Shown piece after piece: positions 4,069 through 34,786 of a stretch of 34,786 nt of DNA. Source of the DNA: a virus; the IMG/VR virus record IMGVR_UViG_3300031688_000063, positions 1 through 34,786 of that record. One strand, 5' to 3'. The notes under the pieces were generated by a model. That model was not told the origin of the DNA and searched no databases. It was given only the letters and a program-made list of their open reading frames with translations. Numbering within the stretch: position 1 is the stretch's first letter; the number at the start of each line of letters is the position of its first letter. Position numbers and translations under genes: made by a program.

Positions 4069-5484
4069 ATGGCTTATAACTTAGCGGGGCTAGACCCTAA
4101 GGATCCTCGCTTTCAGCAGTTGATGGCGCAAGCACTTCGTAATGGAAATATAAACCCTGTTACGATGAAGTCTCAAGTTGAAGAGACTATTAGTGGCGGC
4201 ATGGGAAGACCCTCTATAACAATGGAATCCCAAGTTGAGGATATAACTTCTACCCCTCTTTCATCTGGCATGGCTAGTGCTTATGTAGATCAAGCAGAGG
4301 CAGCCGTTGCACAGAGAAATGCAGAGGCAAAGGCCAGATCGCTAGAGGGCCGTGAGAGGAAGATTGACTCCCAGAGGAGCTATGCAGATAGCTTAAGAGG
4401 ACGAGCAGCGCCACAGGGCATGACTGCTGGGCCACTGGATGTGTATTACGGCCCCAACATAGGTCAGTCACTTGAATATGCTGGAAATCAGTTGATGGGC
4501 GGCTATATGGCTGGAAAGGCTAATGAGGGTGATATTGAATTAGATGTAGATCGCGGATTAGAGAAAAGTAGGCTAGAAGGTATAGTGCAAGATCGCTACA
4601 AAGCAGAACAAGCTCGTCTTCTTGAGCGCGATGCCGCTGATGATGATGAATTTAGAATAACCTTTGGGCTGAAGCGCGACCAATTTGATGAGCTTGTTAA
4701 AGATAAAAATCGAACCTTTGAGCAGAATGTTAGTGAATTTGGTAAAGAATTAGCTGAGAAAATTCGATCTTCTCAAGCGGCGGAGAGTATTTCTCAAGCT
4801 AATGTTGATTTATCTCAGAAGAAGGAAGATAGGGCTTCTATGGGTACATGGGATCCTATGAATGTTGAACTTCCTGATGGGAAACTTGGATCGGTTGTAT
4901 ATAACTCTTTGTTAGGAGAATACAGATTTGGCAATAAAGACGGCAGGATACTTACCTCTTCCGAGGCAACAAAACTGCTAGGATTTGAAGTTAACTCCGA
5001 TGAATTGCCAGCTTCCATGAAAAAAGACAGAGCTGATAGACGCGCTATTATGGAGGGGATTTACCAGTCCATTGGCGAGATAGATTCTCTTTCTTCTGAA
5101 GGAAAAGAAACCAGCGGAGTGAGCGGCTTGATGATGAGTTTTATTCCAGATAAATTTGATGGAATTGCTGAAGACGCGCTATTTGACCCTGATGAAATGA
5201 AACAGCGAGCTAAAAATACATTTCTTGATGCTCAGATTATTGAGGCTGCGACAACTGGTGTTGTTTCAGAAGGCGACGCTAAACGCTTAAGAGGCCTCAG
5301 AGTTGGCCTTGGTGGGCTTACTCCTGAGCAGCAAAAACTAAGACTGTATGCGGCTTCTGAAATATTTGGTCTATATGGCATGGATATTAGCATGGAAATA
5401 CCAGAAAAAGAGTCAGGTAATGGCACCCTAAAAAATCCAAGCGATATGAGTACAGAAGAACTCATGCTTGAATTAGGAGAATAG
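4069..5484 (+). CDS. Probable internal virion protein, coiled-coil
   Basis: A 471-residue protein with a good ribosome site (AGGAG, 6 bases before ATG). Residues about 75-120 and 165-260 are long charged helices rich in Glu, Lys, Arg and Gln, suggesting coiled coils. Two near-identical segments occur early (MKSQVEETIS and MESQVEDITS, about residues 32-60), a small internal duplication. No catalytic motif recognised. It sits between two other large virion-type proteins with 12-base and 2-base gaps, so the three are probably co-translated components of the ejected core. Confidence 0.58.
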   Translation: MAYNLAGLDPKDPRFQQLMAQALRNGNINPVTMKSQVEETISGGMGRPSITMESQVEDITSTPLSSGMASAYVDQAEAAVAQRNAEAKARSLEGRERKIDSQRSYADSLRGRAAPQGMTAGPLDVYYGPNIGQSLEYAGNQLMGGYMAGKANEGDIELDVDRGLEKSRLEGIVQDRYKAEQARLLERDAADDDEFRITFGLKRDQFDELVKDKNRTFEQNVSEFGKELAEKIRSSQAAESISQANVDLSQKKEDRASMGTWDPMNVELPDGKLGSVVYNSLLGEYRFGNKDGRILTSSEATKLLGFEVNSDELPASMKKDRADRRAIMEGIYQSIGEIDSLSSEGKETSGVSGLMMSFIPDKFDGIAEDALFDPDEMKQRAKNTFLDAQIIEAATTGVVSEGDAKRLRGLRVGLGGLTPEQQKLRLYAASEIFGLYGMDISMEIPEKESGNGTLKNPSDMSTEELMLELGE

Positions 5485-11959: not shown

Positions 11960-12137
11960 TCTCTTCCTTCTCAAGAGCATCCTCTAACTCCTTAATAGTA
12001 GCAACCAGCCCATTAAACTCCTGCTGCGCTGAATTAACTAATTGAAGGCATGTTTGCTTCCAGTTAACTACAACCCCAGAATCTTCTGCTTGGATTGATG
12101 TCATTACGACATCTGAAATTGTTCTTACTTCACTCAT
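11937..12137 (-). CDS. Small helical protein, unknown
   Basis: 66 residues, last gene of the leftward early operon. The C-terminal third is strongly helical and acidic and ends in a repeated EKEE unit created by a 21-base tandem duplication. A good ribosome site (TAGGAGAT) lies 5-6 bases before the ATG. The 3' end overlaps the convergent DUF5675 gene. No family recognised. Confidence 0.6.
   Translation of the reverse strand: MSEVRTISDVVMTSIQAEDSGVVVNWKQTCLQLVNSAQQEFNGLVATIKELEDALEKEETILEKEE
11941..11976. repeat. 15-base direct repeat at a convergent gene overlap
   Basis: TCTTCCTTCTCAAGA occurs at 11941-11955 and 11962-11976 (period 21). It encodes the repeated EKEE end of the leftward gene and the last codons of DUF5675 on the other strand. 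Confidence 0.85.
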
Positions 12138-12168
12138 TCTCTATCTCCTATGGTGCTGTAACTGCGGA

Positions 12169-12726
12169 TTATTTATTTTTTAACCTACCCTGCCCGTAAT
12201 CGCGTTTTTTTATCTTTGCCATCCGTCCATCAGGGTGGTGAAATACTAAACCCTCTATATCCATCTTCTCAAGAAATAGAGCAATACCTTCGTGCGTGCG
12301 GAGAATCCCTTCATACTGCGTAGCTTTCTGATGAGATATAAGAACGTGGGAATCAAATCCTTCAGGATTACCTTGAACCTTGGGGCCACAAAGTTCATAC
12401 GTTCCATCATCAGGGGTAGCACCCGCATCCCAAGCCTCCATGTGCCACTGATCCTCATTACTCTCAACAACGGGCATCCAGCCAACAGTCTTCCCAGTAA
12501 TTTTATCATAATCCTCAATCTTGAAACCTTCTGGGGTAGGCTGGCCTTTCTTAATTTCTCGGCGTTTCCAGTACTGGCATCTGTCTACCTTGCAGCACGT
12601 CCCATCATACTTGCGGGTAGCAGTACCCTCGCCATCAAAAACCCACTCGCAGCCAATTGATTTCTCGCGCAAGATTTTTTTCATGTTGCTAGGATCACGC
12701 TGGTATATGGTAGGTATTTTCTTCAT
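12169..12726 (-). CDS. RNA ligase-like nucleotidyltransferase (DUF5565-type)
   Basis: 185 residues. Motif I of the covalent nucleotidyltransferases is clear: RKYDG with Lys39 as the predicted AMP-accepting lysine. EGLVFHH at about residue 158 fits motif IV and AKIKKRDYG at about 170-178 fits motif V. This is the arrangement of ATP-dependent RNA ligases; the short form with no extra C-terminal domain resembles the family annotated as RNA ligase 1/DUF5565. It would seal RNA nicks, perhaps tRNA cut by host defence nucleases. No polynucleotide kinase partner is seen. TAG of the upstream gene directly abuts its ATG. Confidence 0.75.
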   Translation of the reverse strand: MKKIPTIYQRDPSNMKKILREKSIGCEWVFDGEGTATRKYDGTCCKVDRCQYWKRREIKKGQPTPEGFKIEDYDKITGKTVGWMPVVESNEDQWHMEAWDAGATPDDGTYELCGPKVQGNPEGFDSHVLISHQKATQYEGILRTHEGIALFLEKMDIEGLVFHHPDGRMAKIKKRDYGQGRLKNK

Positions 12727-12928
12727 CTATTCCACTCCCTCTAATACTGCCGCTAGGCTGTCTATTTCTGGCAAGTAGTGATACGTCACCTGCTGGCTCT
12801 TTGCCCTGCGAGCGGTATCCACCACAGCCTGCGCAGCCTTCCGCAGCTTGGCGTTCTCGTCCCGCAGTCTGGCGTTATCCGCCTCAAGTATATCAATTAG
12901 TGTAGTCATCTATTCCACTCCCTCTAAT
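12723..12928 (-). repeat. 23-base stop/SD/start junction repeat (two copies)
   Basis: The same 23 bases occur at 12723-12745 and 12906-12928, 183 bases apart, which is exactly the length of the gene between them. Each copy holds the LEGVE codons, the stop TAG, a GGGAG ribosome site and the following ATGA. Confidence 0.85.
12727..12909 (-). CDS. Small coiled-coil protein
   Basis: 60 residues. Residues about 5-35 form a leucine-rich helix with heptad character (DILEADNARLRDENAKLRKA). The protein ends in LEGVE, exactly like the product of the next upstream gene, and the two genes share a 23-base end/junction sequence, suggesting an old tandem duplication. Ribosome site, stop and start are fused at both borders (TAGATGA). 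Function unknown. Confidence 0.55.
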   Translation of the reverse strand: MTTLIDILEADNARLRDENAKLRKAAQAVVDTARRAKSQQVTYHYLPEIDSLAAVLEGVE

Positions 12929-13098
12929 GCTTCTTTCAGTCTGGTGATAGCCTCCTTACGCTTGAAGGGCGCAGCAAGCCCCCTGTCTACTCTATCCTGA
13001 AGGCATACAACTCGTTCAGCCAGCCTCTCGACCTCCCGCAGTCGTGTTACCTCAGCCATAATGATGTCTGCCATCTCTTCCTCTCCCATTTCAGGCAT
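12910..13098 (-). CDS. Small coiled-coil protein, paralogue-like
   Basis: 62 residues, mostly helical and charged (TRLREVERLAERVVCLQDRV), ending in LEGVE. It looks like a diverged relative of the next gene in the operon (12727-12909). The ATG at 13098 overlaps the tail of the membrane-protein ORF upstream. No known family; probably a small early accessory protein. Confidence 0.55.
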   Translation of the reverse strand: MPEMGEEEMADIIMAEVTRLREVERLAERVVCLQDRVDRGLAAPFKRKEAITRLKEALEGVE

Positions 13099-13261
13099 TT
13101 CTACTCAACCAAACCATAATCACTGAAAGGTATGCCATTGCGATCAATTGCCCTGCGTTGGGGGAATTACCCACTAAGTCCAGGTACAGTATGGTGAAGG
13201 CGGCAAAGACCAGTACAGACCATACCGCCATCACGAAATAAGACCACTCCTTGTCTGTCAA
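13091..13261 (-). CDS. Small two-span membrane protein
   Basis: 56 residues if translation starts at the TTG that overlaps the SSB stop as TTGA; a GTG and an ATG (13231) follow at residues 10 and 11. Two hydrophobic segments are evident: MAVWSVLVFAAFTILYL (about 11-27) and IAMAYLSVIMVWL (about 40-52), separated by a polar GNSPNAGQ turn. AAGGAG lies 12 bases before the GTG, leaving the exact start open. It overlaps the following gene by 8 bases. Function unknown. Confidence 0.55.
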   Translation of the reverse strand: MTDKEWSYFVMAVWSVLVFAAFTILYLDLVGNSPNAGQLIAMAYLSVIMVWLSRNA

Positions 13262-13650
13262 AACGGGATGTCATCGTTGAAGTCTGCGCCAGATTCTACC
13301 TTAGAGGCCACTGGCTGCTCTGTTACTGGCTTTGCATTATTCCCAGACCCACCCAAAAGAGTTACATCCTGCACATTGACCTCACACGAAGTCTTAACCA
13401 CTCCTTCCTTGTCAGTCCACTCCCTTGCGGAAAACTCGCCAGATACACCTACTTGCGACCCTTTGGTGAGGTATTGAGCCACCTTTTCGCCGCGATCTCC
13501 CCAGAGGTTGCAGCGCATCCAAGTGGTGATTTTGTTATCACCCCACCCAGACGATAGAGCGACACTGAAGGTGGTAATCTTCTTGCCTGATGGGATTGCA
13601 CGTACTTCAGCATCTTGGCCTAAGTTCCCAGTAAAATTAATACTATTCAT
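13258..13650 (-). CDS. ssb: Single-stranded DNA-binding protein
   Basis: 130 residues with a complete OB-fold SSB pattern: MNSINFTGNLGQDAEVR at the start, WMRCNLWGDRGEKVAQYLTKGSQV in the core (split here by many conserved Gly/aromatic residues), VSGEFSAREW, then a disordered linker and an acidic tip DDIPF, the classic docking tail for replication and repair partners. It is encoded with an exonuclease and an annealing protein, so it probably serves phage recombination and replication. It overlaps the exonuclease gene by 8 bases. Confidence 0.92.
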   Translation of the reverse strand: MNSINFTGNLGQDAEVRAIPSGKKITTFSVALSSGWGDNKITTWMRCNLWGDRGEKVAQYLTKGSQVGVSGEFSAREWTDKEGVVKTSCEVNVQDVTLLGGSGNNAKPVTEQPVASKVESGADFNDDIPF

Positions 13651-14266
13651 GATCCATCCTTTTTAGCATTTCAAATTTCAGATCCTGAAGCTCATCCTCA
13701 AAAACCTGTATTTCTTTTCCCATTATTTTTATCTTTTCTTCATCTCGACTCACTCTTGAAACAAATAATTGCAACGGCTCGGGCAGGCGATCATCGAAAC
13801 TTGCGAAGTCACACCATTCCCTGCCAGTGCAGAACATCTGGTGCTGCATCTGCCACTCATATTTAATATCATGCACCTCAGACTGGATGCAGGCTATATG
13901 ATTCGCCGTGTTGGGACACTTAATCTCAACCAGTCCATCATCTCCAACGTATCCATCAGGGCTTGACCCAGTAAAATCATACTCAGGGTGAAGTATAAAC
14001 GCAGCTTCAGTAACCATGACCTCCTGACTCACCTCATACGAAGCCCTCGCTAGTGGCTCCATGTCAGTCCCACGCTGCATAGCACCAGACGTAAACCCTT
14101 CCTCCCTTTGTCCTGTTAGCCGCTGGCATAGCAGCTCCATCATGTAGTTCTTTCGGGTGGCTGACACAGCACCGCTGCGCCCTTTTGCCATCACATCCTT
14201 TACGCGACTTGAGGTTATCTTGCCGAGCCTAGCAGCGAACCACTCTTCAGACATTTGCTCAATCAT
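13643..14266 (-). CDS. YqaJ/lambda-type recombinase exonuclease
   Basis: 207 residues of the YqaJ viral recombinase family (PD-(D/E)XK fold). Near the N-terminus is EEWFAARLGKITSSRV, then RGTDMEPLAR with Glu70, GSSPDG with Asp104, and LVEIKCPN with Glu114 and Lys116, which together form the metal site. It should digest one strand of a DNA end 5' to 3' so that the annealing protein encoded just upstream can load. The C-terminal helix (about 175-207) is charged. ATGA-type overlaps on both sides. Confidence 0.9.
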   Translation of the reverse strand: MIEQMSEEWFAARLGKITSSRVKDVMAKGRSGAVSATRKNYMMELLCQRLTGQREEGFTSGAMQRGTDMEPLARASYEVSQEVMVTEAAFILHPEYDFTGSSPDGYVGDDGLVEIKCPNTANHIACIQSEVHDIKYEWQMQHQMFCTGREWCDFASFDDRLPEPLQLFVSRVSRDEEKIKIMGKEIQVFEDELQDLKFEMLKRMDHE

Positions 14267-14828
14267 TATTTAGCTCCTTCTTCTTTGCGTCCTTAACTTT
14301 AGTCAACTCCCCCCTTGATTTAGGGAATAATTCCCATGACCGCTTGAACGCGACCTGTAGCTCATCAAGTGTTTTTGATTCATTGAGTGCTAAAACTTCA
14401 GACGCTATATCTTCAGCAGCCTCTTGGGGTGTTGATTCTCCAGCGTAGATATAATGTCCTAGACCAAACATGGCTAGGCACTTCACAAGACATCTCATTC
14501 GCGCTGAGTTGATGTCAAAGGCATTAGGCCCACTGATAGCCTTGTTCTTGAAGTCCAGCACTGGTAGCCACATGGTGTTGCTCACATAATCACCAGAGAA
14601 TACGCCATCACGATCCCATCCGTTACTCCCAATACCCACTTTCACCCTAACCTCCATTGTTCCGTCAGGATAAACGGTGTCAGGCAGCAGCTCGTAGGAC
14701 GCTAGAGGGTATAAGTCCTTAACCATAGCCCATGCCCATGTCCAAGACAGATAGCTAAACTGACCCTTCTTGTCTACATGATCTTTGCAATCTATTGTGC
14801 TTAGTGTCGCCCAAACTGATTTGCTCAT
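14259..14828 (-). CDS. Single-strand annealing protein, DUF1071 family
   Basis: 189 residues. KKGQFSYLSWTWAWAMVKDL, the DGTMEVRVKVGIG strand, the MWLPVLDFKNKAI strand and INSARMRCLVKCLAMFGLG are hallmarks of the DUF1071 family of phage single-strand annealing proteins, which pair complementary strands. Its overlap with the exonuclease gene and neighbouring SSB make a complete SSAP-exonuclease set. The C-terminal part is a helical, basic tail. A UNCG-loop hairpin and GAGG ribosome site precede it. Confidence 0.85.
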   Translation of the reverse strand: MSKSVWATLSTIDCKDHVDKKGQFSYLSWTWAWAMVKDLYPLASYELLPDTVYPDGTMEVRVKVGIGSNGWDRDGVFSGDYVSNTMWLPVLDFKNKAISGPNAFDINSARMRCLVKCLAMFGLGHYIYAGESTPQEAAEDIASEVLALNESKTLDELQVAFKRSWELFPKSRGELTKVKDAKKKELNND

Positions 14829-14851
14829 CTTGTTGCCTCGTTGTATTGTTA

Positions 14852-14865
14852 GGGGCCGTAGCCCC
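14852..14865 (-). terminator. UNCG-loop hairpin between operon genes
   Basis: In the leftward RNA, GGGGC-UACG-GCCCC forms a 5-bp G/C stem with a UNCG tetraloop. It starts 8 bases after the stop of the 63-residue gene and has no U tract, so it may act as an RNA stabiliser or processing/pause element rather than a full terminator. A near-identical hairpin with UUCG lies at 23769-23782, again just after a stop. Confidence 0.6.
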
Positions 14866-14873
14866 GATTAGTC

Positions 14874-15065
14874 CTACTTGTCTTCAAGACCTGGAATGTT
14901 GGGCTTGACACCCTGCAACTCCTGATACTTCAGCAACTTTGCGTAGGAGGCAATAACGGTGCTGGCAGCACGATTAAGTTCCTTCGCAGTGTTGATGTTG
15001 ATGTTCTCTGCCTTCAATTCACCATAAAGTGCAGTCTGTTCTTCGATCAACTTGTTGATGTTCAT
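14874..15065 (-). CDS. Small helical protein, unknown
   Basis: 63 residues, predicted mostly helical (INKLIEEQTALYGELKAEN; AASTVIASYAKLLKYQEL) with an acidic tail. GAGGAAG lies a normal distance before the ATG. It lies just upstream of the annealing-protein gene and ends before a UNCG hairpin. No family recognised. Confidence 0.6.
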   Translation of the reverse strand: MNINKLIEEQTALYGELKAENININTAKELNRAASTVIASYAKLLKYQELQGVKPNIPGLEDK

Positions 15066-15095
15066 ATTCTACTTCCTCGCTTAGTTGACCCCAAT

Positions 15096-16085
15096 TTAAT
15101 TGGCTGGAGCCGTGACCATTGTTCTTAATTCTCTGGTGATGCGCATTTGAGTTCGTTTTAGTTCTATCAACTTTTTCGGCGGGTTATTGACTCCAAGCCT
15201 CCGAAATGTATTTCTTACATATGAATCTTTAAGTTGTTTGCAATTTTCAGCCTTCCACTCCCGCATCTGCTCTGGGTGTTCAGAGAAGTATTTCTTTGAA
15301 TACTCCCTACAGTGGACTAGATTGTCCCTCTTCCACCTCCGACCTTTCTCCAATACCGCGTCTAGGTTTTCCGTGTAATACTTGTCGGTGTATGCGCGTA
15401 TACAGTCTTGGCAGTTCCCCTTATGTTTCTGACCACCGTCTACATAGAAGCCTGCTTTGTGGAAAAGACCCAAAGGCTTCTCTTCTCCGCACTTGTTGCA
15501 TCTTCGGGTATCAGGCAAAGCCGTATTCCCATAGCCGCGATTTATGTTATAAGTCCTGCCAAACTTCCTGATCCGCTGACGGTGCATTTCACACAAATCC
15601 GATGTCTTGCTATCACGTTCGCACGCCTCAATAGAGCAAGCCCTATATGGAGCCTTTCCTTGCCCACTCATATGTCGTGGCTTAGGAACAAACCCAGCTC
15701 CAGGGCAAGTCCAGTCCATGTGGTGCCGTCTCTGGCCTATCAGAACCTTCATCATGTTTTGCTCTTTTAGACCGCGCTCCATACAAAAGGCTCTTACACT
15801 GATTGTAATTGTGTGTTCTACGCCGTCAGGTGAGAGCAACTTTGCCCCGCGCCAGTCTTTCCTCTTCCCAGATTTGTCTGTCGTTCCAGTTCTCCAAAAC
15901 CGAGTATAATGCATACTACAAAGTCCGTGGCCGCAAGGCTTACTATCGCACCCATCAACACTGCATCCACTGGGCCTCACTCTGGGGCTAGTTGTCCCAG
16001 TGTTCTTCAATCGTTTATAGTGCCGTACACAAAGACCGCGAGCCTCATGCTTTCTATCACAACCCTCCAGGTCACAAGTTCTCAT
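15096..16085 (-). CDS. Zinc-finger protein with NUMOD-like DNA-binding module
   Basis: 329 residues from the ATG at 16085, chosen because GGAGG lies 9 bases upstream; a longer frame to 16181 has unlikely sequence and overlaps the upstream gene. Order: zinc knuckles at residues about 4-23, 41-60 and 149-168 (Cys-x4-Cys ... Cys-x2-His pattern); a helix-turn-helix-like segment at about 88-127 (VRAFCMERGLKEQNMMKVLI then GQRR...W) resembling NUMOD modules of homing endonucleases; a fourth zinc ribbon (CNKCGEEKPLGLFHK ... CQDC) at about 196-228; a long basic helix. No HNH or GIY-YIG catalytic core seen. Probably DNA-binding, derived from a mobile endonuclease. Confidence 0.65.
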   Translation of the reverse strand: MRTCDLEGCDRKHEARGLCVRHYKRLKNTGTTSPRVRPSGCSVDGCDSKPCGHGLCSMHYTRFWRTGTTDKSGKRKDWRGAKLLSPDGVEHTITISVRAFCMERGLKEQNMMKVLIGQRRHHMDWTCPGAGFVPKPRHMSGQGKAPYRACSIEACERDSKTSDLCEMHRQRIRKFGRTYNINRGYGNTALPDTRRCNKCGEEKPLGLFHKAGFYVDGGQKHKGNCQDCIRAYTDKYYTENLDAVLEKGRRWKRDNLVHCREYSKKYFSEHPEQMREWKAENCKQLKDSYVRNTFRRLGVNNPPKKLIELKRTQMRITRELRTMVTAPAN

Positions 16086-16275
16086 CGTCTTCGGCCTCCA
16101 TCTTGGCAATGAAAGCCAGTTGAGATTTATTAAACTCACCTTGGTGTTTCTGCTCTGCCATTTCCTGAGCGGCCTCTTCACAGATCAGATCAGTAGAACC
16201 GTTAGGATGTTCCGCGCAAGGTATGTAATCGCCGTCATGGAGTGTGTCGCAGCATGTGCAGTAATATACTCCCAT
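16072..16275 (-). CDS. Small Cys-rich protein
   Basis: 67 residues from the ATG at 16275, which overlaps the upstream stop as TGATG; a GTG at 16278 is the alternative. YCTCCDTLHDGDYIPCAEH could hold a zinc ion (CxxC ... C..H). The rest is helical and acidic. It overlaps the zinc-finger gene by 14 bases. Function unknown. Confidence 0.55.
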   Translation of the reverse strand: MGVYYCTCCDTLHDGDYIPCAEHPNGSTDLICEEAAQEMAEQKHQGEFNKSQLAFIAKMEAEDDENL

Positions 16276-16962: not shown

Positions 16963-16990
16963 ATATTAACACTAATCCTACTTATGTAAA
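16963..16990 (-). promoter_or_regulatory. Leftward sigma70-type promoter PL2 with operator
   Basis: On the minus strand: -35 TTTACA (16985-16990), 16-base spacer, -10 TAATAT (16963-16968). The word TTAGTGTTA (16967-16975) overlaps the first two bases of the -10 box, exactly as in the two promoters of the divergent control region. It lies just upstream of the gene at 16457-16927 and downstream of the gene ending at 17035. Confidence 0.75.
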
Positions 16991-17541: not shown

Positions 17542-17570
17542 ATATTAACACTAATCTTTATTAATGTCAA
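17542..17570 (-). promoter_or_regulatory. Leftward early promoter PL1 with operator
   Basis: On the minus strand: -35 TTGACA (17565-17570), 17-base spacer, -10 TAATAT (17542-17547): almost consensus sigma70. TTAGTGTTA (17546-17554 in complement) overlaps the first two bases of the -10. Divergent from and 12 bases away from the -35 of PR. Confidence 0.85.
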
Positions 17571-22009: not shown

Positions 22010-22084
22010 TCACATTAAAAAGTAGATGATAAATACAAAGGCAAACCCGATTAAGAGATTGCCTGCTATTTCGTACCACCTCAC
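22010..22084 (-). CDS. 24-residue single-span membrane micro-protein
   Basis: GTG start overlapping the upstream stop (GTGA), with GAGGTGG about 4 bases upstream. The product is MRWYEIAGNLLIGFAFVFII plus YFLM: almost one membrane helix. Its stop lies 9 bases before the next ATG, so it fills an otherwise empty gap in a tightly packed operon. Too short for family assignment. Confidence 0.45.
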   Translation of the reverse strand: MRWYEIAGNLLIGFAFVFIIYFLM

Positions 22085-22398
22085 GCTGCCACCTCACAAT
22101 TATCATTGTCCCAGTCTGCAATGTGCTCATTCGCAGAACACCACAGCTCCACGGCAGTAGAAAGGTAAAAGGAATTTATCTGGAGCCAGCTACTATCTAC
22201 GGGAGGTGTACATTCTCCCACTCCAAAAATATCTTCTATATAGATCACTACCTCCTGCCCATATTCAGCCATAGTTTTACAGGCATCGTAATAGGTAACG
22301 GCTGGCATATAAGCGCCACTTGCACACCCACCTTGTAAGATGGCGGCAATGTCACATGGTGTAAGGTCTTGTGTGATCCAGTTCGGCTGATTTAACAT
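22081..22398 (-). CDS. Phage accessory protein, unknown
   Basis: 105 residues, with MLNQPNWITQDLTPCDIAAI, then GGCASGAYMPAVTYYDACKT and WCSANEHIADWDN. The composition is acidic with six Cys. I recall similar small proteins in other phages, without function. Preceded by the third copy (22415-22470) of the double-hairpin element and by AAGGA. Confidence 0.55.
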   Translation of the reverse strand: MLNQPNWITQDLTPCDIAAILQGGCASGAYMPAVTYYDACKTMAEYGQEVVIYIEDIFGVGECTPPVDSSWLQINSFYLSTAVELWCSANEHIADWDNDNCEVAA

Positions 22399-22414: not shown

Positions 22415-22470
22415 TAATACTGGAAACCGTCCAGCTGGGAATTTTCACTGAAAAGCCCCAGTTAAGGGGC
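22415..22470 (-). repeat. Double-hairpin element, copy C
   Basis: In the leftward RNA: GCCCC-UUAACU-GGGGC-UUUUC, then CUGG-(7)-CCAG, then UAUUA, 16 bases before the ATG of the 105-residue gene. Related copies lie at 23327-23373 and 23703-23748. The first hairpin with four U is terminator-like. Confidence 0.7.
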
Positions 22471-22492
22471 AGCAGGGTAAAACCTGGAAATA

Positions 22493-22672
22493 TTAGCAGC
22501 TAAACCCATCAAAATAAGCCTGTACCACCTCGCGCACATACTGGGCGGGTAGACCGCTTCGTTTGGATATGTGTCTAGTAATAGCTACTTTCAAATACTC
22601 TTTTTGGTCTATATCTTTTATATCTTGCACATAGAATTCTATCAATTCAGACACTGTTTTTAAGTTATTCAT
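22493..22672 (-). CDS. Small helical protein, unknown
   Basis: 59 residues (MNNLKTVSELIEFYVQDIKD, ... SKRSGLPAQYVREVVQAYFD). ATG overlaps the upstream stop as ATGA. Predicted helical; the second half could be DNA-binding but this is not clear. No family recognised. Confidence 0.55.
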   Translation of the reverse strand: MNNLKTVSELIEFYVQDIKDIDQKEYLKVAITRHISKRSGLPAQYVREVVQAYFDGFSC

Positions 22673-22992
22673 ACTGAAGCCTCTATAGCTATATAGTTAT
22701 CCGATACCTTGACCGCTAACCGCTCGGCATTGCCGAACATTGATTGTCTAACCTCTGGCTTGTATCTAATATCAATCGTTTGATAAACAAAGCCCCTACG
22801 CCTGTCATTAACACAAGACACTTTCTTGTCGCCCTGCTCTAGCGCCCTTATGCCGATGTGATCGGAATAGAAGCCAATTTCAATAGCTTGATGGCAATCA
22901 AACCCATACTCTGCCAAGTCCCTGCGTTGAATACAGGTACGGGCATTCTTGCCGTTGATCGCTCCGTTTTTAATCGTAGTCAATGTTTTCAT
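22669..22992 (-). CDS. Basic accessory protein, unknown
   Basis: 107 residues, basic, with beta-type alternation (SCVNDRRRGFVYQTIDIRYK; AVKVSDNYIAIEASV) and three Cys. ATGA overlap on both sides. No family recognised. Confidence 0.55.
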   Translation of the reverse strand: MKTLTTIKNGAINGKNARTCIQRRDLAEYGFDCHQAIEIGFYSDHIGIRALEQGDKKVSCVNDRRRGFVYQTIDIRYKPEVRQSMFGNAERLAVKVSDNYIAIEASV

Positions 22993-23315
22993 TTTGAAAC
23001 CTCGTTGTTGTCGCCCAGAATAGGACTAGTACTATAAACTTTTCCACTTGTGTGCTCGTCTTTCTCGTGCCCGTCATTAGGGAAAACAATCTTCGCCCTT
23101 GTCTCGAATGTAACGCCATTCCAGATTGACTTCCTACCAGTGATATAAACATCGATAGCTAACCCGTGAGAATTGCAAGATTCGTCATTAACGCGATAGT
23201 CACATCCAGCCCAAGTGCTATCAGTGAAGTTCTCATTATCAACGCTTAAGAAAGCCCAGCTCGGCCACTGATCGGGGTGAACTGCGGTAATACAATCTGA
23301 TTTAAGTTTAAACAT
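22989..23315 (-). CDS. Accessory protein, unknown
   Basis: 108 residues with several Trp and Cys (PDQWPSWAFLSVDNENF; STWAGCDYRVNDESCNSHG). AGGAG is close before the ATG, and the second copy of the double-hairpin element ends 11 bases before it. Overlaps the next gene as ATGA. No family recognised. Confidence 0.55.
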   Translation of the reverse strand: MFKLKSDCITAVHPDQWPSWAFLSVDNENFTDSTWAGCDYRVNDESCNSHGLAIDVYITGRKSIWNGVTFETRAKIVFPNDGHEKDEHTSGKVYSTSPILGDNNEVSK

Positions 23316-23326
23316 TTCTTATCTCC

Positions 23327-23373
23327 TAATACTGGGAAGGCCAGCTCCTACCTGAAAACCCCACTTAAGGGGC
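23327..23373 (-). repeat. Double-hairpin element, copy B
   Basis: In the leftward RNA: GCCCC-UUAAGU-GGGG-UUUUC, CAGGUAGGAG, CUGG-(5)-CCAG, UAUUA, directly followed by AGGAG and ATG. Same architecture as copies A and C with different loop bases. Confidence 0.75.
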
Positions 23374-23398
23374 ATATGTTAATCATACTAGGTTGGGA

Positions 23399-23677
23399 CT
23401 AGATCCAATCGACCTCTGGCTCCTCTTGCCACTCGAATTGCTCGGTGGTAGTAGTCGATAGCTGGTCTATTGATTCGCTCTTTATTGTGTGACTAGCTCC
23501 GCAGTGCAAAGCTTCCCCAACATACCCGTACCAGCCTGTAGAATCGCCGTCTATAACATTGCCGCACTGGGTGGCTTTTATTACTTCAGCTTTGGTTATA
23601 TCAACGCCACCGCTTACACGCTCAACAATCACCGTTGTTATGGTTCTGGTTCTAGTTCCACTAGTCGTGAATTTCAT
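23399..23677 (-). CDS. Thr-rich accessory protein, unknown
   Basis: 92 residues. The first half is beta-type and Thr-rich (TSGTRTRTITTVIVERVSGG); the end is acidic with two Trp. Preceded by copy A of the double-hairpin element, 25 bases upstream, and a weak ribosome site. No family recognised. Confidence 0.55.
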   Translation of the reverse strand: MKFTTSGTRTRTITTVIVERVSGGVDITKAEVIKATQCGNVIDGDSTGWYGYVGEALHCGASHTIKSESIDQLSTTTTEQFEWQEEPEVDWI

Positions 23678-23702
23678 TTTTTAATACCCGCCTGTTAATG
23701 TG

Positions 23703-23748
23703 AACACTGGTTGGGCCAGCTCCCACCTGAAAACCCCAGTTAAGGGGC
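23703..23748 (-). repeat. Double-hairpin element, copy A
   Basis: In the leftward RNA: GCCCC-UUAACU-GGGG-UUUUC, CAGGUGGGAG, CUGG-(5)-CCAG, UGUU. Copies A and B share most positions; C is more distant but keeps both stems. Confidence 0.75.
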
Positions 23749-23768
23749 GTTTGATTAGGTTAGTGGTT

Positions 23769-23782
23769 GGGGCCGAAGCCCC
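23769..23782 (-). terminator. UNCG-loop hairpin after the 88-residue gene
   Basis: GGGGC-UUCG-GCCCC in the leftward RNA, 6 bases after the stop at 23789, with no U tract. Flanks (AAUC before) match those of the hairpin at 14852-14865. Confidence 0.6.
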
Positions 23783-23788
23783 GATTGG

Positions 23789-24055
23789 TTAAGCGTCGAA
23801 GTCTAAGTCAGAAAGAATGAAGTCATTCAGTTTAGACCTTCTTGCGCTGGTAAAGGTGTCCCCAATAGCGTTCTTCTCCAGCAAAGAGGACATTGTTCCC
23901 CCGATGCTCTGCTTGGTGCCGCCTAAATCGTGTAGTAAATCATCGGCATTCATGTAGCTCATATTTTCTTCTTCATCGCATCGGCCGCAACAGTCTTCTG
24001 ACACATCACGGAAAGCATTGAGCATCTTGATTTCGTTCTCAGTGTATTTGTTCAT
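23789..24055 (-). CDS. Acidic accessory protein, possible HTH
   Basis: 88 residues, first gene of the leftward accessory block. Two Cys pairs near the N-terminus (EDCCGRCDEEE) and a helix-turn-helix-like LLHDLGGTKQSIGGTMSSL. Ends acidic (LSDLDFDA). Good ribosome site (AGGAGATAG) before the ATG. No family recognised; a regulator is possible. Confidence 0.55.
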   Translation of the reverse strand: MNKYTENEIKMLNAFRDVSEDCCGRCDEEENMSYMNADDLLHDLGGTKQSIGGTMSSLLEKNAIGDTFTSARRSKLNDFILSDLDFDA

Positions 24056-24585
24056 GGTATCTATCTCCTACGTGCAGCACAAAGGGGCTGCGTCCTGTCC
24101 AACCATTCTAACAACGTCAATACATAATGCAACTAATCATTTCATTAATTACCTATATATAGGTGACTGTATCTCGGTTGTGTCTGGGTGTGAGTGTGTG
24201 GTTGTGTCTGTGGGTCTGTGTGCCTGTGTGCCTGTGTTGCAACAATGCCCAGCACTTGTTGTTGCTCTTTGTATTGGTAGCGGTTGCCTATGGCATGTCA
24301 TGACAGGCAGTGAACCCTATTTGGTTCTGAACTGGTTTGACTGGATACCCCCCGACCCTTTCTGAAAAATGAATTGTTACTGATACGGACTAAGCCTCAC
24401 ATATTTTTTGAGTTTTTCACTCCCCCGTCTTTCCTAGCTCTCAAGCCCTTGGTTTGCAGTGTCCCTATTTTCCTGCTATTAAAGAACCTCTTCACTGCGT
24501 TACGATCTATTGCTAACGCAAAGTCTTTCCAGCGAGTAGAGCTATGTCTCTTATTTAAATTGTTTGTATTAATAAGGATGGTTAG
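24056..24585. other. 530-base non-coding region before the terminase genes
   Basis: No credible gene on either strand. It holds a perfect 14-base palindrome ACCTATATATAGGT (24151-24164), a G/T-rich tract on the + strand (about 24176-24240), an inverted repeat GCAACAA/TTGTTGC (24239-24245 and 24259-24265), a 10-base palindrome TGTCATGACA (24296-24305) and a C6 run near 24349. The position directly upstream of the terminase genes makes it a candidate packaging (pac or cos) site, and it also holds the accessory-block promoter. Function inferred only. Confidence 0.5.
24105..24132 (-). promoter_or_regulatory. Candidate leftward promoter of the accessory block
   Basis: On the minus strand TTGCAT (24127-24132), 16-base spacer, TAGAAT (24105-24110). 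It faces the 88-residue gene and lies about 50 bases upstream. It lacks the TTAGTGTTA word of the other early promoters. Confidence 0.45.
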
Positions 24586-24876: not shown

Positions 24877-25034
24877 TGCCATACGTCTCTGACAAACAAC
24901 GCGCCTATCTGCATATCAATGAACCTGAGATAGCAGCTAAGTGGGATGCTGAACTTAAGTCTAAAAAGAAGGATACCAGTCGGCAGAAACTAATTGCTGA
25001 CAATATACGCAAAGTATCTAATCGTAGTAGCTAA
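24876..25034 (+). CDS. Small protein between terminase genes
   Basis: 52 residues beginning MPYVSDKQRAYLHINEPEIA, followed by a Lys-rich helix. This start (hydrophobic-SDKQRAYL-x-EPEIA-x-KW) is common in small phage proteins of unknown role. TGATG overlap with the TerS-like gene and TAATG overlap with TerL place it in one translational unit. Confidence 0.65.
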   Translation: MPYVSDKQRAYLHINEPEIAAKWDAELKSKKKDTSRQKLIADNIRKVSNRSS

Positions 25035-26380
25035 TGGATCTCACACTCCCTTATCACCCTAGAAAGCAGTTTATAGACTTCCATCAACGCAGTACCCGCT
25101 TTGGTGCTATGGTCTGTCATCGTCGTGCTGGCAAGACAGTCTCCTGTATTGGTGAGCTAGTCACTCGCGGTATGTACACCAAGAAGAAGAGAGCTGAGTA
25201 TGCTTACGTTGGCCCCTTCCGCGCACAAGCTAAGAAGATAGCCTGGACTTACCTTAAAGACTTTACCGAAGGATTGAGAAAAGGCCCACCTAGAGAATCT
25301 GATCTATCTGTCACTCTACACAGTGGTGCGACCATTACCCTGTACGGCGCTGATAACCCTGATGCCTTACGAGGATTGTTCTTTGATGGCATTGTCCTTG
25401 ATGAGTACGGTGATATGCGCCCTAGCATTTGGGGTGAAGTTGTATTGCCTACGTTATTGGATCGTAAGGGCTGGTCTGTCTTTATTGGCACCCCCAAAGG
25501 AAAGAACCACTTCTATCAGATGGTTCAAAGGGCTAAGACTGAAGACAACTGGTATGAACTTACCCTTAAAGCCAGTGAGAGTGGTCTTTTAGACGAAGAC
25601 TCACTTGCTCTAGCCAAAGCTGAGATGACCGATGCTCAGTACCAACAAGAGATGGAGTGTTCCTTTGAGGCGGCTGTTCTAGGCGCTTACTACTCAGACA
25701 TCATTGCTGAGATGGAGAAGATCTGTGTTGACCACGATAAACCTCGTATTGGTGACTATCCCTATAATCCACATGAAGTTGTTCATTGTTCAGCCGATCT
25801 TGGCTACACAGACTCTACTGCCTTCTGGTTCTGGCAATTAACGGAAGAGGGGCCAATTCTAATAGATTATGAGGAGTATGATGGTCAACCTCTTGAGTTC
25901 TACTTTGATATGCTTAAAAACAAAGGCTATCAGTATGCCGATATGTGGCTACCTCACGATGCTAAGGCAACATCACTGCAAACAGGCCGATCAACGGTTG
26001 AACAGTTCCTTGACGCAGGCTTTCCCTGCCGTGTTGTTCCGAAACTAGCCGTTCAACATGGAATTGATGCCGCAAGACTCATCATGCCGCAGTGCAGGAT
26101 CAATAAAGCCACCTGTTATTCGGGGATAGAGGCGCTTCGAGCCTATAAACGCTCTTTTAACGAGAAAACCCAACAATTTGCCAATAAACCCTTGCATGAT
26201 TGGGCAAGTAATGGTTCAGACTCCTTCAGATACTTCTCACTAGTCACTGAAACCAGTAAAACAGCACTTCAAGTGGTCGATGACAACAAACCACTGCTTG
26301 AAGCCGTCACCTACACGCTTGACGACCTCTATAAGTCTCAAGAAGAAGATAGCTGGCGAAGAAGTGTGATTAGGATATAA
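25034..26380 (+). CDS. terL: Terminase large subunit
   Basis: 448 residues. Walker A CHRRAGKT (residues 28-35), Walker B GIVLDEYGDM (about 117-126), coupling motif IGTPKG (about 151-156), then the RuvC-type nuclease domain with SADLGYTDSTAFWF (first acidic residue Asp around 256), HDAKATSLQTGRS and HDWASNGSDSFRY near the C-terminus. It pumps DNA into the procapsid and cuts it. Length is normal for the family. Confidence 0.95.
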   Translation: MDLTLPYHPRKQFIDFHQRSTRFGAMVCHRRAGKTVSCIGELVTRGMYTKKKRAEYAYVGPFRAQAKKIAWTYLKDFTEGLRKGPPRESDLSVTLHSGATITLYGADNPDALRGLFFDGIVLDEYGDMRPSIWGEVVLPTLLDRKGWSVFIGTPKGKNHFYQMVQRAKTEDNWYELTLKASESGLLDEDSLALAKAEMTDAQYQQEMECSFEAAVLGAYYSDIIAEMEKICVDHDKPRIGDYPYNPHEVVHCSADLGYTDSTAFWFWQLTEEGPILIDYEEYDGQPLEFYFDMLKNKGYQYADMWLPHDAKATSLQTGRSTVEQFLDAGFPCRVVPKLAVQHGIDAARLIMPQCRINKATCYSGIEALRAYKRSFNEKTQQFANKPLHDWASNGSDSFRYFSLVTETSKTALQVVDDNKPLLEAVTYTLDDLYKSQEEDSWRRSVIRI

Positions 26381-26411
26381 TTGAACACAAATTAACCAAA
26401 GGATTTCTAAA

Positions 26412-26780
26412 ATGAACGGACAAATGCCACCACAAGGTATGCCACCGCAAGGTATGGCTCCACAGGGCATGGCCCCTCAAGCATTCCCAGCAGGTCCAGC
26501 CGTTGGGATGCCTCAAGGTCAACAGCCAGCGGGAAAGCAAGCTCCATCTCCCAATGCAGCTCAACCGCCGCCACAACAGCCAGAAAGTCACATGATGCCA
26601 GATGGCACAATGATGTCTGGCCCAGCACAACAAGGCCAGCAACCTTCACAACCTGTTCCAGCAGCCCCAGATCCAATGCAACAGCAACAAATGATGGCTC
26701 AAATGCTTAGGCAGAATGCCCCAAGCCAGCCAATAGCAGGTATGCCCCCACAAGGGATGGCACAGCAGAATAGAGGCTAA
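26412..26780 (+). CDS. Pro/Gln/Met-rich disordered protein
   Basis: 122 residues, made up of PPQGM/APQGM-type repeats at the start and Gln/Pro/Met-rich sequence thereafter; no structured domain is evident. AAAGGA precedes the ATG. Between TerL and portal it may be a head-associated or packaging accessory protein. The reverse strand carries open frames that are mirror products of the repetitive composition. Confidence 0.6.
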   Translation: MNGQMPPQGMPPQGMAPQGMAPQAFPAGPAVGMPQGQQPAGKQAPSPNAAQPPPQQPESHMMPDGTMMSGPAQQGQQPSQPVPAAPDPMQQQQMMAQMLRQNAPSQPIAGMPPQGMAQQNRG

Positions 26781-26783
26781 ATA

Positions 26784-28970
26784 ATGGACGTTGATATAGA
26801 GATTGATTACGAGACAGTTGTGGACATGAAAGCTCCCAAAAAGAGCAAGACACCCGCACAATGGCACCAGCACTGGCAGAAAGAGATGTCAGCGGCTGAT
26901 AAACGATTACGCAAGTACCTGAAGCAGGGTAACTCTGTTGTTAATCGCTATTTGGATGACAGACAAGGCTCTAGTGACTCCTATGGAGATAACTTCAGCA
27001 ATAATGCGTCTTCAAAGCTCAATCTGTTCCATAAGAATGTCTCTACAACAATGGCTATGCTGTACGGCAATACGCCAAAGATTGATGTTGTTCGCGAACA
27101 TTATGACCCAGATGACGATATAGCGCGGGTTGCCTCATTAATGTATCAACGAATGCTTATGACTGACGTTGAACCCAGCGGTGAAGACCTATCGACTGTA
27201 TTAAAAGCAGCACTTCAGGATAGATTACTTCCTGGCATGGGCTGTGCGCGTGTTCGTTACGATATGGCGACCATGACCGAGACTCAAATGAACCCCGACT
27301 CTTTTGAAAATGAAGAAATCGAGGTATTAGACTATGAAGATGCTCCTATCGACTACATCCACTGGCAAGATGTCAGATGGGGCTGGGGTAGGACGTGGAA
27401 AGAGATCCCTTGGTGGGGATTTCGTGCTTGGCTTGATAAAGATGAAGTTACTGAGCGTTTTGGCGAGAAAGTAGCCAAAAACATTGATTACAAGAACCAA
27501 ACTCCAGAAGGCAATAGCGGCAATATGGGCGCTGCCAATACTGATGAAAGAGATAATGTCCAGAAGGCAGAAATCTGGGAAATCTGGAACAAAAAAGACA
27601 AGCATGTGTATTGGTATTCTGAAGGTGCAGATCTCATTCTGGACTATAAAGAAGATCCATTAGGGCTGGATGGGTTTCTACCTATGCCTAGACCTATGAT
27701 AGCCAACTGCACAACCACGTTATTTACACCGCAAGCCGATTTTATACTTGCTCAGGACTTGTACAATGAAATTGATGAGCTACAAAGCCGTATAAGCACC
27801 ATTACTCGCGCTATTAAAGTAGTGGGCGTATATGACAAGGCATCAGGTGATTCAGTGGGCCGTATGCTCAAAGAGGGTGTTGAAAATGATCTAATACCCG
27901 TTGATAACTGGGCGATGTTTGCTGAGAAGGGTGGGTTGCAAGGAAGTATCCAGTGGTTCCCTGTTGAGGTCATAGTGGGTGTATTGCAGACACTACAACT
28001 TGTACAGCAGGCTAAGACTGAACAATTGTATGAAATAACAGGCATGAGTGACATTATGCGCGGAGGTGCTACCGATCAGTACACTTCTGGCGGTACTCAA
28101 GCTATTAAAGCCAAGATGGGGTCTATCGGCATTCAGGCGTTGCAAGAGGAGTTCGCTAGGTTTGCTAGTGATCTTGAGGCTCTAAAAGCTGAAGTTATAT
28201 CAAAGCACTTCAGCAAAGAGACTATTGTTGAGCAATCTAACGCTGGATTTCTCCCAGAAGCTGATAAGACGTATGTCTCCGATGCCATTGACTTAATGCA
28301 GTCAACGGATGTGAAGTGGCGTGTAAACATCAAGCCAGAGTCTATTGCGATGGTTGACTACGCCCAGATTAAGTCTGAGCGCAGTGAATTCCTGATGGCA
28401 ATGTCTCAGTATATCCAATCTGCTTCAAGTGCTGCTGCTGCCCTTCCAGAATCCTTACCTATCCTTCTTGAAATGCTCAAATGGGCTATGGCTGGGTATA
28501 AAGGGGCTGAATATCTTGAAGGCACGTTTGATCTAGCGATTGAAGGGGCCAAGAATATGCCACCGCCTGGACAAGATGATAATGGTGCCGCTCAGGATAA
28601 TCAGGTTAAGCTCCAGATAGAGCAGATGAAGATTCAAGCGAGCCAGCAAAAGCAAGCAGGTGAAGTTCAGAAGATTCAAATCAAAGCTCAAGCTGACATG
28701 CAGGTTCAGCAGGCTAAAATACAGTCTGAAATGGCCAAGATGGAAGCTGATAACCAGCGAGACATGACGATGGAGCAAATGCGCTCTCAGAGTCGCTTGC
28801 AGGAGATAGCCTCTGATCTTCAGGCGAGTATCCAAGAGATACAAGCCAATATGAAGGCTGACCTAATGATTGAACGCGCCCAAGCCACTTACGATATTGA
28901 ATCTCAAGGGGTTAACCACGAATACTCAATGAGTGAGATAGAAGCCCAAGCAAGAGGCAGAAACGAATGA
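26784..28970 (+). CDS. Portal protein
   Basis: 728 residues, of P22-like size. The N-terminal region includes WQKEMSAADKRLRKYLKQGN and SKLNLFHKNVSTTMAMLYGN, typical of podovirus portals; a central RWGWGRTWKEIPWWGF and the EIDELQSRISTITRAIKVVG helix follow. The C-terminal ~130 residues are a long Gln/Lys/Met-rich coiled coil (about 605-720). It forms the ring through which DNA enters and leaves. It follows TerL and the Pro-rich gene and overlaps the next gene as ATGA. Confidence 0.85.
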   Translation: MDVDIEIDYETVVDMKAPKKSKTPAQWHQHWQKEMSAADKRLRKYLKQGNSVVNRYLDDRQGSSDSYGDNFSNNASSKLNLFHKNVSTTMAMLYGNTPKIDVVREHYDPDDDIARVASLMYQRMLMTDVEPSGEDLSTVLKAALQDRLLPGMGCARVRYDMATMTETQMNPDSFENEEIEVLDYEDAPIDYIHWQDVRWGWGRTWKEIPWWGFRAWLDKDEVTERFGEKVAKNIDYKNQTPEGNSGNMGAANTDERDNVQKAEIWEIWNKKDKHVYWYSEGADLILDYKEDPLGLDGFLPMPRPMIANCTTTLFTPQADFILAQDLYNEIDELQSRISTITRAIKVVGVYDKASGDSVGRMLKEGVENDLIPVDNWAMFAEKGGLQGSIQWFPVEVIVGVLQTLQLVQQAKTEQLYEITGMSDIMRGGATDQYTSGGTQAIKAKMGSIGIQALQEEFARFASDLEALKAEVISKHFSKETIVEQSNAGFLPEADKTYVSDAIDLMQSTDVKWRVNIKPESIAMVDYAQIKSERSEFLMAMSQYIQSASSAAAALPESLPILLEMLKWAMAGYKGAEYLEGTFDLAIEGAKNMPPPGQDDNGAAQDNQVKLQIEQMKIQASQQKQAGEVQKIQIKAQADMQVQQAKIQSEMAKMEADNQRDMTMEQMRSQSRLQEIASDLQASIQEIQANMKADLMIERAQATYDIESQGVNHEYSMSEIEAQARGRNE

Positions 28971-33676: not shown

Positions 33677-34071
33677 CTGAAGAGGAGTTCGCACAACTCT
33701 CAACTGAAGAGAAGCAGGCTCTAATGCGGCAGATGTCCCAAGTTAAGGAGATGCGTGTTGATTACGGCTCTATGGAGAATCCGTATGGGCAAGCACCTCA
33801 ACAACAAAGAGTAAATGCTCCAAAGCGGCAAAATAGACAAGAGCCACAAATGCCACAACAACGTAGCGGAAGTGCAGTTACTCCTAGCCAGATTATGCGC
33901 CCATCCCCACCTAGTGCTGGAGAGGCTGGAGGCCCATTAACCACTTCTGAAGCGAAGACTATGGCCCAAAGTGCTGCTCAAGCCGCACAAAGCCCTATTT
34001 CTCTAAATCCTTCTGCATATGATGCAATTGGAAATTCCGTTAAAAAGAAAAAACTGCGAGAATTTTTCTGA
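33673..34071 (+). CDS. Gln/Pro-rich protein between adaptor and nozzle
   Basis: 132 residues. A short helix (EEEFAQLSTEEKQALMRQMS) is followed by disordered Gln/Pro/Ser-rich sequence and ends in a basic tail (KKKKLREFF). Starts in ATGA overlap with the adaptor gene; ends one base before the nozzle start. No family recognised. Confidence 0.55.
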   Translation: MTEEEFAQLSTEEKQALMRQMSQVKEMRVDYGSMENPYGQAPQQQRVNAPKRQNRQEPQMPQQRSGSAVTPSQIMRPSPPSAGEAGGPLTTSEAKTMAQSAAQAAQSPISLNPSAYDAIGNSVKKKKLREFF

Positions 34072-34072
34072 T

Positions 34073-34786
34073 ATGTCATATACCCGCCAAAAGACATTAG
34101 GTAGGTATGGCAGGCAGCTAAGTCAGCCAACTGTACAGCCGTATACATTTCCTGCCAGTGTTGGCGGGATTAACTCTGTTGACTCATTAATGATGATGCC
34201 TCCAGAGGACTGTATCTACTCTTACAACCTAATGCCGTCTGAATATGGCATGAGATTGAGAAAGGGCTACAGAGAGTGGGCCACAGGGTGCGTAGAAACG
34301 CCTCCAAGAGCCGCAAGCTCAGACGTACACACAATCATACCCTTTGAATCGAACATCCAAGACGATGCTAATAACCGCCTGTTCGCTGTTACTGCTGAGG
34401 GTATCTGGAACACAACATTATTTAACACGATTGAGCCTGTTCAAGAAGTTGTATTTACTCAGACTGACAGCCCTTCTGGGTATGGTGTATGGACTGAATT
34501 TACAGGAGATGCAGCAGGAGCGGGCCTGCGTGGTCACTATTTGCTCTATGCTGATGGTTTAAACGGTTTGTGGCAGTATGAAGAGGCGACAAGCCTATGG
34601 TCACGGCCTCCTTCTGGTGTTGGTTTAACAGACTGGTACTATGATCTTGCTGGCGTGACTACCGCTTTCCCTGTCGATGATATTGCCTTTGTAATGGTCT
34701 TTAAGCAGCGTATCTGGGTGATTCTTGAAGATGAAGATGACGCTTGGTATCTGCCTATTGCTTCTATTACTGGAGAGCTAAAGAAG
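34073..34786 (+). CDS. Tail nozzle/stabilisation-like protein, N-terminal part (3' partial)
   Basis: 238 codons, open to the end of the window. It begins SYTRQKTLGRYGRQLSQPTV; PYTFPASVGGINSVDSLMMM and EDCIYSYNLMPSEYGMRLRK suit podovirus tail-nozzle proteins. The end (ASITGELKK) should be continued by the frame that is open at the start of the window (SKMPHGG...); the frames fit if the gap is 2 bases modulo 3, for example 11. Confidence 0.72.
   Translation, partial: MSYTRQKTLGRYGRQLSQPTVQPYTFPASVGGINSVDSLMMMPPEDCIYSYNLMPSEYGMRLRKGYREWATGCVETPPRAASSDVHTIIPFESNIQDDANNRLFAVTAEGIWNTTLFNTIEPVQEVVFTQTDSPSGYGVWTEFTGDAAGAGLRGHYLLYADGLNGLWQYEEATSLWSRPPSGVGLTDWYYDLAGVTTAFPVDDIAFVMVFKQRIWVILEDEDDAWYLPIASITGELKK

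Follow-up and report, generated by a model that had tools for sequence, protein, structure and literature searches.

It has long been asked how phages can take up and shed small accessory genes while keeping their operons intact. The PeSLs of T4-like phages were reportedly described by Arbiol in 2010 and by Comeau in 2014. In the excerpts of PMC4503421, these promoter early stem loops are presented as mediating shuffling between T4-like phages. For lambdoid phages, passages of PMC3029335 describe boundary (linker) sequences, short non-coding homologies at module borders at which homologous recombination was proposed to take place (Clark et al. 2001, Susskind & Botstein 1978), and state that at most mosaic borders no shared sequence has been found. 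Lambdoid morons, as outlined there, carry their own promoter (Juhala 2000, via PMC3029335). In cluster K mycobacteriophages, the SAS is a conserved 13-mer, GGGATAGGAGCCC, lying over the ribosome-binding site, 3–7 nt before the start codon, while the 17-bp inverted repeats of the ESAS probably do not pair as RNA (excerpts of PMC3203893). The put RNA of HK022, according to a portion of PMC9378689, is located downstream of early promoters and folds over about 70 nt into two long adjacent stem-loops forming one paired unit.

Here we analyzed a stretch of viral DNA of 34,786 bases, a whole viral record (hereafter the window), in which a joint made of a terminator-like hairpin and a leader is repeated in an operon of small accessory genes. 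Compared with what the excerpts above report, the joint resembles boundary sequences as a short homology at borders in a lambda-like phage (judged by NinG), and PeSLs in being a stem-loop of terminator type that recurs between small accessory genes and is tied to gene shuffling. Unlike boundary sequences, it is one structured joint repeated within one operon, and a chimera of two copies was seen; in contrast to PeSLs, no promoter was recognized, the phage is of another type and the downstream part consists of a leader that mostly carries a small hairpin. Morons share with it a gene present or absent between relatives and transcription signals at the border, but the promoter that a moron carries was not recognized in the joints. 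The likeness to SAS/ESAS lies in repeats near the start codons of some non-structural genes, often of different families, whereas the joints lack a fixed 13-mer and instead have a terminator with a U-tract and a few compensatory pairs. With put they share two stem-loops in some 50–70 nt of nascent phage RNA, and in two relatives a leader hairpin likewise follows directly after the likely operon promoter; the joint hairpins, however, are short, the first has a U-tract and the second can stand alone. By analogy, the joint would work like lambdoid boundary sequences and PeSLs, without a recognized promoter. Our preferred reading, which we hold to be rather probable, is that the joints combine a weak terminator with a leader and are retained as seams of homology at which cassettes can be exchanged. 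No published description of such a joint was found in the open-licence literature, and since a structured joint and a natural chimera of two copies occur here side by side, the idea of an exchange seam is directly testable.

The window carries large terminase and portal genes (25034–28970) and genes for a tail fiber, an amidase, an RNA ligase, a replication-initiation protein and a NinG-like protein, the latter in keeping with a lambda-like phage. No DNA similarity between the window and named phages was found; portal relatives among named phages remain below 60% identity, and three portal relatives occur in bacterial genome contigs. In a sister phage, L004 (contig IMGVR_UViG_3300031629_000070), positions 12079–12814 match 34051–34786 of the window and positions 12827–15400 match 2–2575; because L004 spans both ends of the window, the record probably represents a near-complete genome in circularly permuted form. 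All three joints lie in a cluster of small leftward genes that runs from about 24055 down to 21445, between the NinG-like gene and the terminase. Ten proteins were scanned, seven of them from this operon, and among these seven none matched Pfam and one (105 aa) matched PHROG. The features of the operon, followed by two recombination genes, are:

24151–24164, no strand: palindrome ACCTATATATAGGT, just upstream of where the operon promoter is presumed
23789–24055, minus strand: 88-aa gene, first of the operon, without family match; L004 has an unrelated 154-aa ORF there
23769–23782, minus strand: extra hairpin of GGGGC-UUCG type, GGGGCTTCGGCCCC, upstream of copy A, without a U-tract after it
23703–23772, minus strand: copy A of the joint, linking the 88-aa gene to the 92-aa gene, its B-like part extending upstream to 23772; hairpin 1 at 23734–23748, UUUU at 23730–23733, linker containing GGTGG
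23706–23720, minus strand: hairpin 2 of copy A, GCTGG/CCAGT with loop CCCAA
23399–23677, minus strand: 92-aa gene flanked by copies A and B, without family match, missing in L004
23328–23397, minus strand: copy B of the joint, linking the 92-aa gene to the 108-aa gene; hairpin 1 at 23359–23373, UUUU at 23355–23358, linker GGTAG
23331–23345, minus strand: hairpin 2 of copy B, GCTGG/CCAGT with loop CCTTC, then AGGAG
22989–23315, minus strand: 108-aa gene after copy B, its protein identical in L004
22669–22992, minus strand: 107-aa gene overlapping the preceding gene, with no joint between the two
22493–22672, minus strand: 59-aa gene right before copy C, missing in L004
22415–22470, minus strand: copy C of the joint, linking the 59-aa gene to the 105-aa gene; hairpin 1 at 22455–22470, UUUU at 22451–22454, without GGTRG
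22419–22435, minus strand: hairpin 2 of copy C, GCTGGA/TCCAGT with loop CGGTT
22081–22398, minus strand: 105-aa gene after copy C, phrog_12388, of unknown function
14259–14828, minus strand: Sak-like single-strand annealing protein, candidate recombinase for the joints
13643–14266, minus strand: RecE-like exonuclease

The palindrome is a possible operator, and a TATATA-containing sequence resembling it was seen by eye at the matching place in L004 and in two further relatives, L007 and L009. Elsewhere in the window, GATTAGTGTTAATAT recurs at two leftward promoter-like sites (16963–16990 and 17542–17570, minus strand) and is perhaps a shared operator of early genes. Beside the recombination genes lies an HNH endonuclease-like protein of 361 aa (15096–16181, minus strand) matching several PHROG HNH families, possibly a homing endonuclease. 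Between the 105-aa gene and an 83-aa gene, a micro-protein ORF of 24 codons with a GTG start (22010–22084, minus strand) encodes one membrane span; tiny membrane proteins also occur in the same operon of L007 (about 4700–4796) and L009 (about 6043–6136 and 6868–6960), and another phage, L084, has a similar one upstream of its relative of the 105-aa gene. A tie between the joint and the 105-aa gene itself was considered and dropped, as no joint was present upstream in the 49 loci inspected by eye, of 54 related loci.

The three copies described by the earlier note were all found where it had placed them, on the minus strand, with both of the stems it named (GCCCC/GGGG(C/U) then UUUU, and CUGG/CCAG) and with distances of 25, 11 and 16 nt from copy end to start codon. 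Its placing of hairpin 1 in the leader of the next gene calls for a correction: the hairpin begins 40, 25 and 22 nt after the upstream stop codon (copies A, B and C) and is thus as much gene end as leader. Copies A and B are 76% identical across 70 nt without a gap, and a 19-nt hairpin 1 is common to all three. Searching the window for the 22-mer GCCCCTTAACTGGGGTTTTCAG with up to three mismatches returned two matches (A and B), against none in 100 shuffles; copy C differs from this 22-mer by one inserted base, and no further copies beyond A, B and C were found in the window. Folding energies were ordinary relative to shuffled sequence (z of −0.60, +0.26 and −1.84 for A, B and C), and the minimum-energy fold of copy C differs from the two-hairpin structure. 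The repetition of the joint is far beyond chance; the folding energies alone are not.

Hairpin 1 consists of 4–6 G-C pairs followed by 4–6 U in all eight joints of the window and its relatives, which fits an intrinsic terminator, and only copy C passed a stricter terminator scan. What the earlier note had called a terminator-like first stem is, from its sequence, likely to be a partial gene-end terminator, and hairpin 1 would terminate part of the transcription. The attenuator that the same note had considered did not hold in the classical sense. Upstream sequence able to pair with the 5′ arm of hairpin 1 over 5 nt was present only in copy A and its L004 counterpart, the other six of the eight joints having 3–4 nt. 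An alternative hairpin of copy C, using the 3′ arm of hairpin 1 and the U-tract, was rejected, since it would be able to form only once the polymerase had gone by, too late to act as an attenuator.

At the DNA level, L004 matches the window at 92–95% identity across five structural blocks and at 78% across one more. In place of copy A, the 92-aa gene and copy B, L004 has a single joint, copy-A-like from the GGGGCTTCGGCCCC hairpin to CCAGT (93.8% over 81 nt) and copy-B-like from CCAGTATT on, into the 108-aa gene; the switch from A to B falls within CCAGT/ATT of hairpin 2. Being A-like upstream and B-like downstream, this joint is just what a crossover between A and B in a window-like genome would give, although the difference may instead have arisen the other way round, by a gene and a joint inserting into an L004-like arrangement. 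The first genes also differ (88 aa in the window, 154 aa in L004), and homology resumes at the extra GGGGCTTCGGCCCC hairpin, 35 nt before hairpin 1 of copy A. Where L004 misses the 59-aa gene, homology returns 21 nt before hairpin 1 of copy C. Read from the sister genomes, exchange at the joints has happened, and the phage's own RecE-like/Sak-like pair may have carried it out.

For the wider survey, the best 80 of 562 portal relatives were used; 11 of these loci were scanned for terminators generally, and all loci collected by then for a hairpin followed by a T-run and GGTRG. Besides L004, operon joints were found among the scanned loci only in L007 and L009 (portal identity 68–69%), two in each, so that full joints were observed in only four phages (the window, L004, L007 and L009). 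The order in L007 and L009 is hairpin, 5–6 U, GGTAG, leader, Shine-Dalgarno and ATG. The genes between their joints encode GP88-family proteins, of 297 aa in L007 and 209–214 aa in L009, with no mutual blastp match at E 0.01; homology ends directly after GGTAG and returns 14 nt ahead of the next hairpin 1. Immediately after its second joint, L009 has an additional 96-aa gene. Copy C aligns to the second joint of L007 over 72 nt (70.8%, E 1.6e-5), with the CGGTT loop in both. L084 shares with L007 99 nt that include hairpin 1 and GGTAG (E 6.5e-13), the genes flanking this patch in L084 being unrelated to those of L007, and an exact 29-mer of the L007/L084 flank occurs in only those two viral contigs. 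A repeated non-coding patch with exchange of flanking genes, the hallmark shared by PeSLs and boundary sequences, is thus seen in the L004 chimera and in the L007/L009 swaps, and the modular recombination joint, one of the possibilities raised by the earlier note, is well supported by both.

Seven gene-content differences in the operon were counted by eye, from alignments and sequences, in the pairs window/L004 and L007/L009. For six of them, an edge of the breakpoint falls inside a joint or no more than about 42 nt from the first stem of one, a raw count that is partly expected because intergenic space is limited. The seventh, concerning the promoter-proximal genes of L007 and L009, begins at the end of the first leader, away from the joints. 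In the preferred reading of homology seams, the G+C-rich hairpin and its 4–6 U would end the upstream cassette as a weak-to-moderate intrinsic terminator with partial read-through. The downstream half would belong to the next cassette as its leader, with a GGTRG linker (not in copy C), usually a 5-bp hairpin, an A/U-rich stretch and a Shine-Dalgarno; the leader sequence is observed, and we infer from it a leader function and a part in setting translation. Homologous or annealing recombination between joints would then delete, insert or swap the intervening genes. Because successive joints, and those of related phages, offer similar non-coding patches, exchange can leave every reading frame intact.

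GGTRG follows the U-tract in seven of the eight joints, copy C being the exception. Across 88 terminators from loci picked without the pattern, GGTAG occurred four times (expected 0.34), each time in L007 or L009; after such terminators it was present in 5 of 274 bacterial genomes and is not enriched there, two permuted pentamers giving 10 and 4 of 274. A viral scan for terminator-GGTAG returned at least 120 matches, many in coding regions, from which no count is derivable. The confinement of GGTAG, among those 88 terminators, to L007 and L009, together with the lack of enrichment in bacteria, points to either a lineage mark or a lineage-specific signal. AGGTAG as a ribosome-binding site for a leader peptide was rejected by eye, no suitably spaced start codon being present. 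Compensatory changes were counted by eye, using only the L007/L009 sequences that align by sequence. The first-leader hairpins, GCTGG-CCTTT-CCAGT in L007 and GCTAG-CCTTT-CTAGC in L009, have one pair changed on both sides (G-C to A-U). In the second joints, hairpin 2 changes from C-G to U-A and from A-U to G-C around a kept CGGTT loop, and the outer pair of hairpin 1 from G-C to A-U. The table of hairpin 2 pairs comes from pre-picked hairpins and is thus no covariation test, and a MAFFT alignment of the eight joints was too poor for a covariance model. The earlier note had named a lack of further copies or of covariation as refuting its element; copies exist in relatives, along with these few compensatory changes.

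Such paired changes count for an active RNA control, in which hairpin 2, with GGTRG, would be either a site bound by a phage or host protein or an antitermination signal whose logic resembles that of HK022 put or lambda boxB; by allowing read-through of the hairpin 1 terminators, it would couple the expression of all cassettes. We regard this explanation as unlikely. It agrees with a stem of at least 5 bp and a 5-nt loop in 10 of 12 cassette leaders, against 570 of 12,000 random 50-mers, the 12 leaders not being independent (the L084 element and copy C of L004, cut by the contig end, were excluded). The first joint of L007 has no 5-bp hairpin 2 and the first leader of the window has an 8-nt loop. 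The loop CGGTT, moreover, sits on three different stems (copy C of the window, L007 and L009), and in the first-gene leaders of L007 and L009 the small hairpin stands without hairpin 1 immediately behind the likely promoter, which is where nut and put sites are located. Yet the mean stem probability of hairpin 2 is low in half of the leaders (0.42, 0.77, 0.26, 0.01, 0.93, 0.01, 0.99, 0.59, 0.01 and 0.93 in the ten, below 0.3 in four and below 0.8 in seven), and no antiterminator gene was recognized among the ORFs scanned. Between the end of the hairpin and the best Shine-Dalgarno match, 8 of 10 leaders also have 3–8 nt (12 nt in copy A and 20 nt in the second joint of L007), which suits a role in translation at least equally; in this computation the start codon of leader L9a was off by three, its 22 nt including the ATG. 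A nut site consists of boxA beside a boxB pentaloop hairpin, and despite the pentaloop hairpins in most leaders none of the eight joints contains the boxA core [CT]GCTCTT. Instead of the two long adjacent stem-loops of put, the joints have two short hairpins with an unpaired linker, and no put-like leader was found at the early genes at 17.5 kb. The RfaH ops site is a GGCGGTAGCGTG-type element whose hairpin is closed by a C; the joints share with it only GGTRG, missing in copy C, and the hairpin-closing C is not conserved. The SAS/ESAS 13-mer was not found in the joints as read, and Rfam gave no match in the whole window at gathering level and, relaxed to E up to 5, two chance-level matches outside the joints. 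By the tests applied, the joint belongs to none of the put, nut, ops, SAS/ESAS or Rfam families. A dual-purpose element, both RNA regulatory site and recombination seam, appears quite unlikely; a phage or host factor would recognize the leader hairpin and GGTRG and set read-through or translation of every cassette, and any cassette dropped into the operon would automatically fall under the same control.

That each joint might unite a terminator with a new promoter, every cassette being an independent moron as with PeSLs, is suggested by its position between accessory genes, its terminator-like stem and the exchange of flanking genes, but seems improbable to us. Sigma-70-type promoter matches between 12 and 26 kb are as frequent as chance predicts (22 against 22.8 expected), with the reservation that the host's promoters may differ from this consensus; the sole minus-strand match in a joint is weak (TTCACA-17-AAAAAT), and in the window only 39–52 nt separate the U-tract from the next start codon. 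The joints could also be ordinary gene-end terminators followed by leaders, the likeness of A and B reflecting simple duplication and the rest convergence on G+C-rich terminators. The ordinary folding z-scores are in line with this, as is the finding of GCCCCTTAANTGGGGNTTTTCAG, the sequence of hairpin 1, in two other viral contigs, where it forms a plain terminator. We nevertheless consider it very unlikely, given the alignment of copy C with the second joint of L007, the order of hairpin, U-tract, GGTRG and leader found again in L004, L007 and L009, and the restriction of GGTAG, which is no general terminator feature, to L007 and L009 among the 88 terminators examined.

No exact match to a two-hairpin pattern was found in viral contigs, the pattern being too strict even for L007 and L009. 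A descriptor scan gave 17 matches in 2.43 Mb against none in one shuffle, with L001, L138, L155, L161 and L262 excluded as duplicates of other loci; the first joint of L007 falls outside these matches. GGTRG is present in 8 of the 17, two of these being in other phages (L150 and L251). L198 carries near-identical terminator-GGTAG copies at 6081, 6179, 7049 and 7888 (plus strand), three of them directly before genes; the likeness concerns the terminator and GGTAG part, without an established second hairpin. On the structural-gene strand, two successive T-run hairpins precede a gene of 167–176 aa in L007 (14049, plus strand), L005 (7293), L008 (5755) and L016 (4494).
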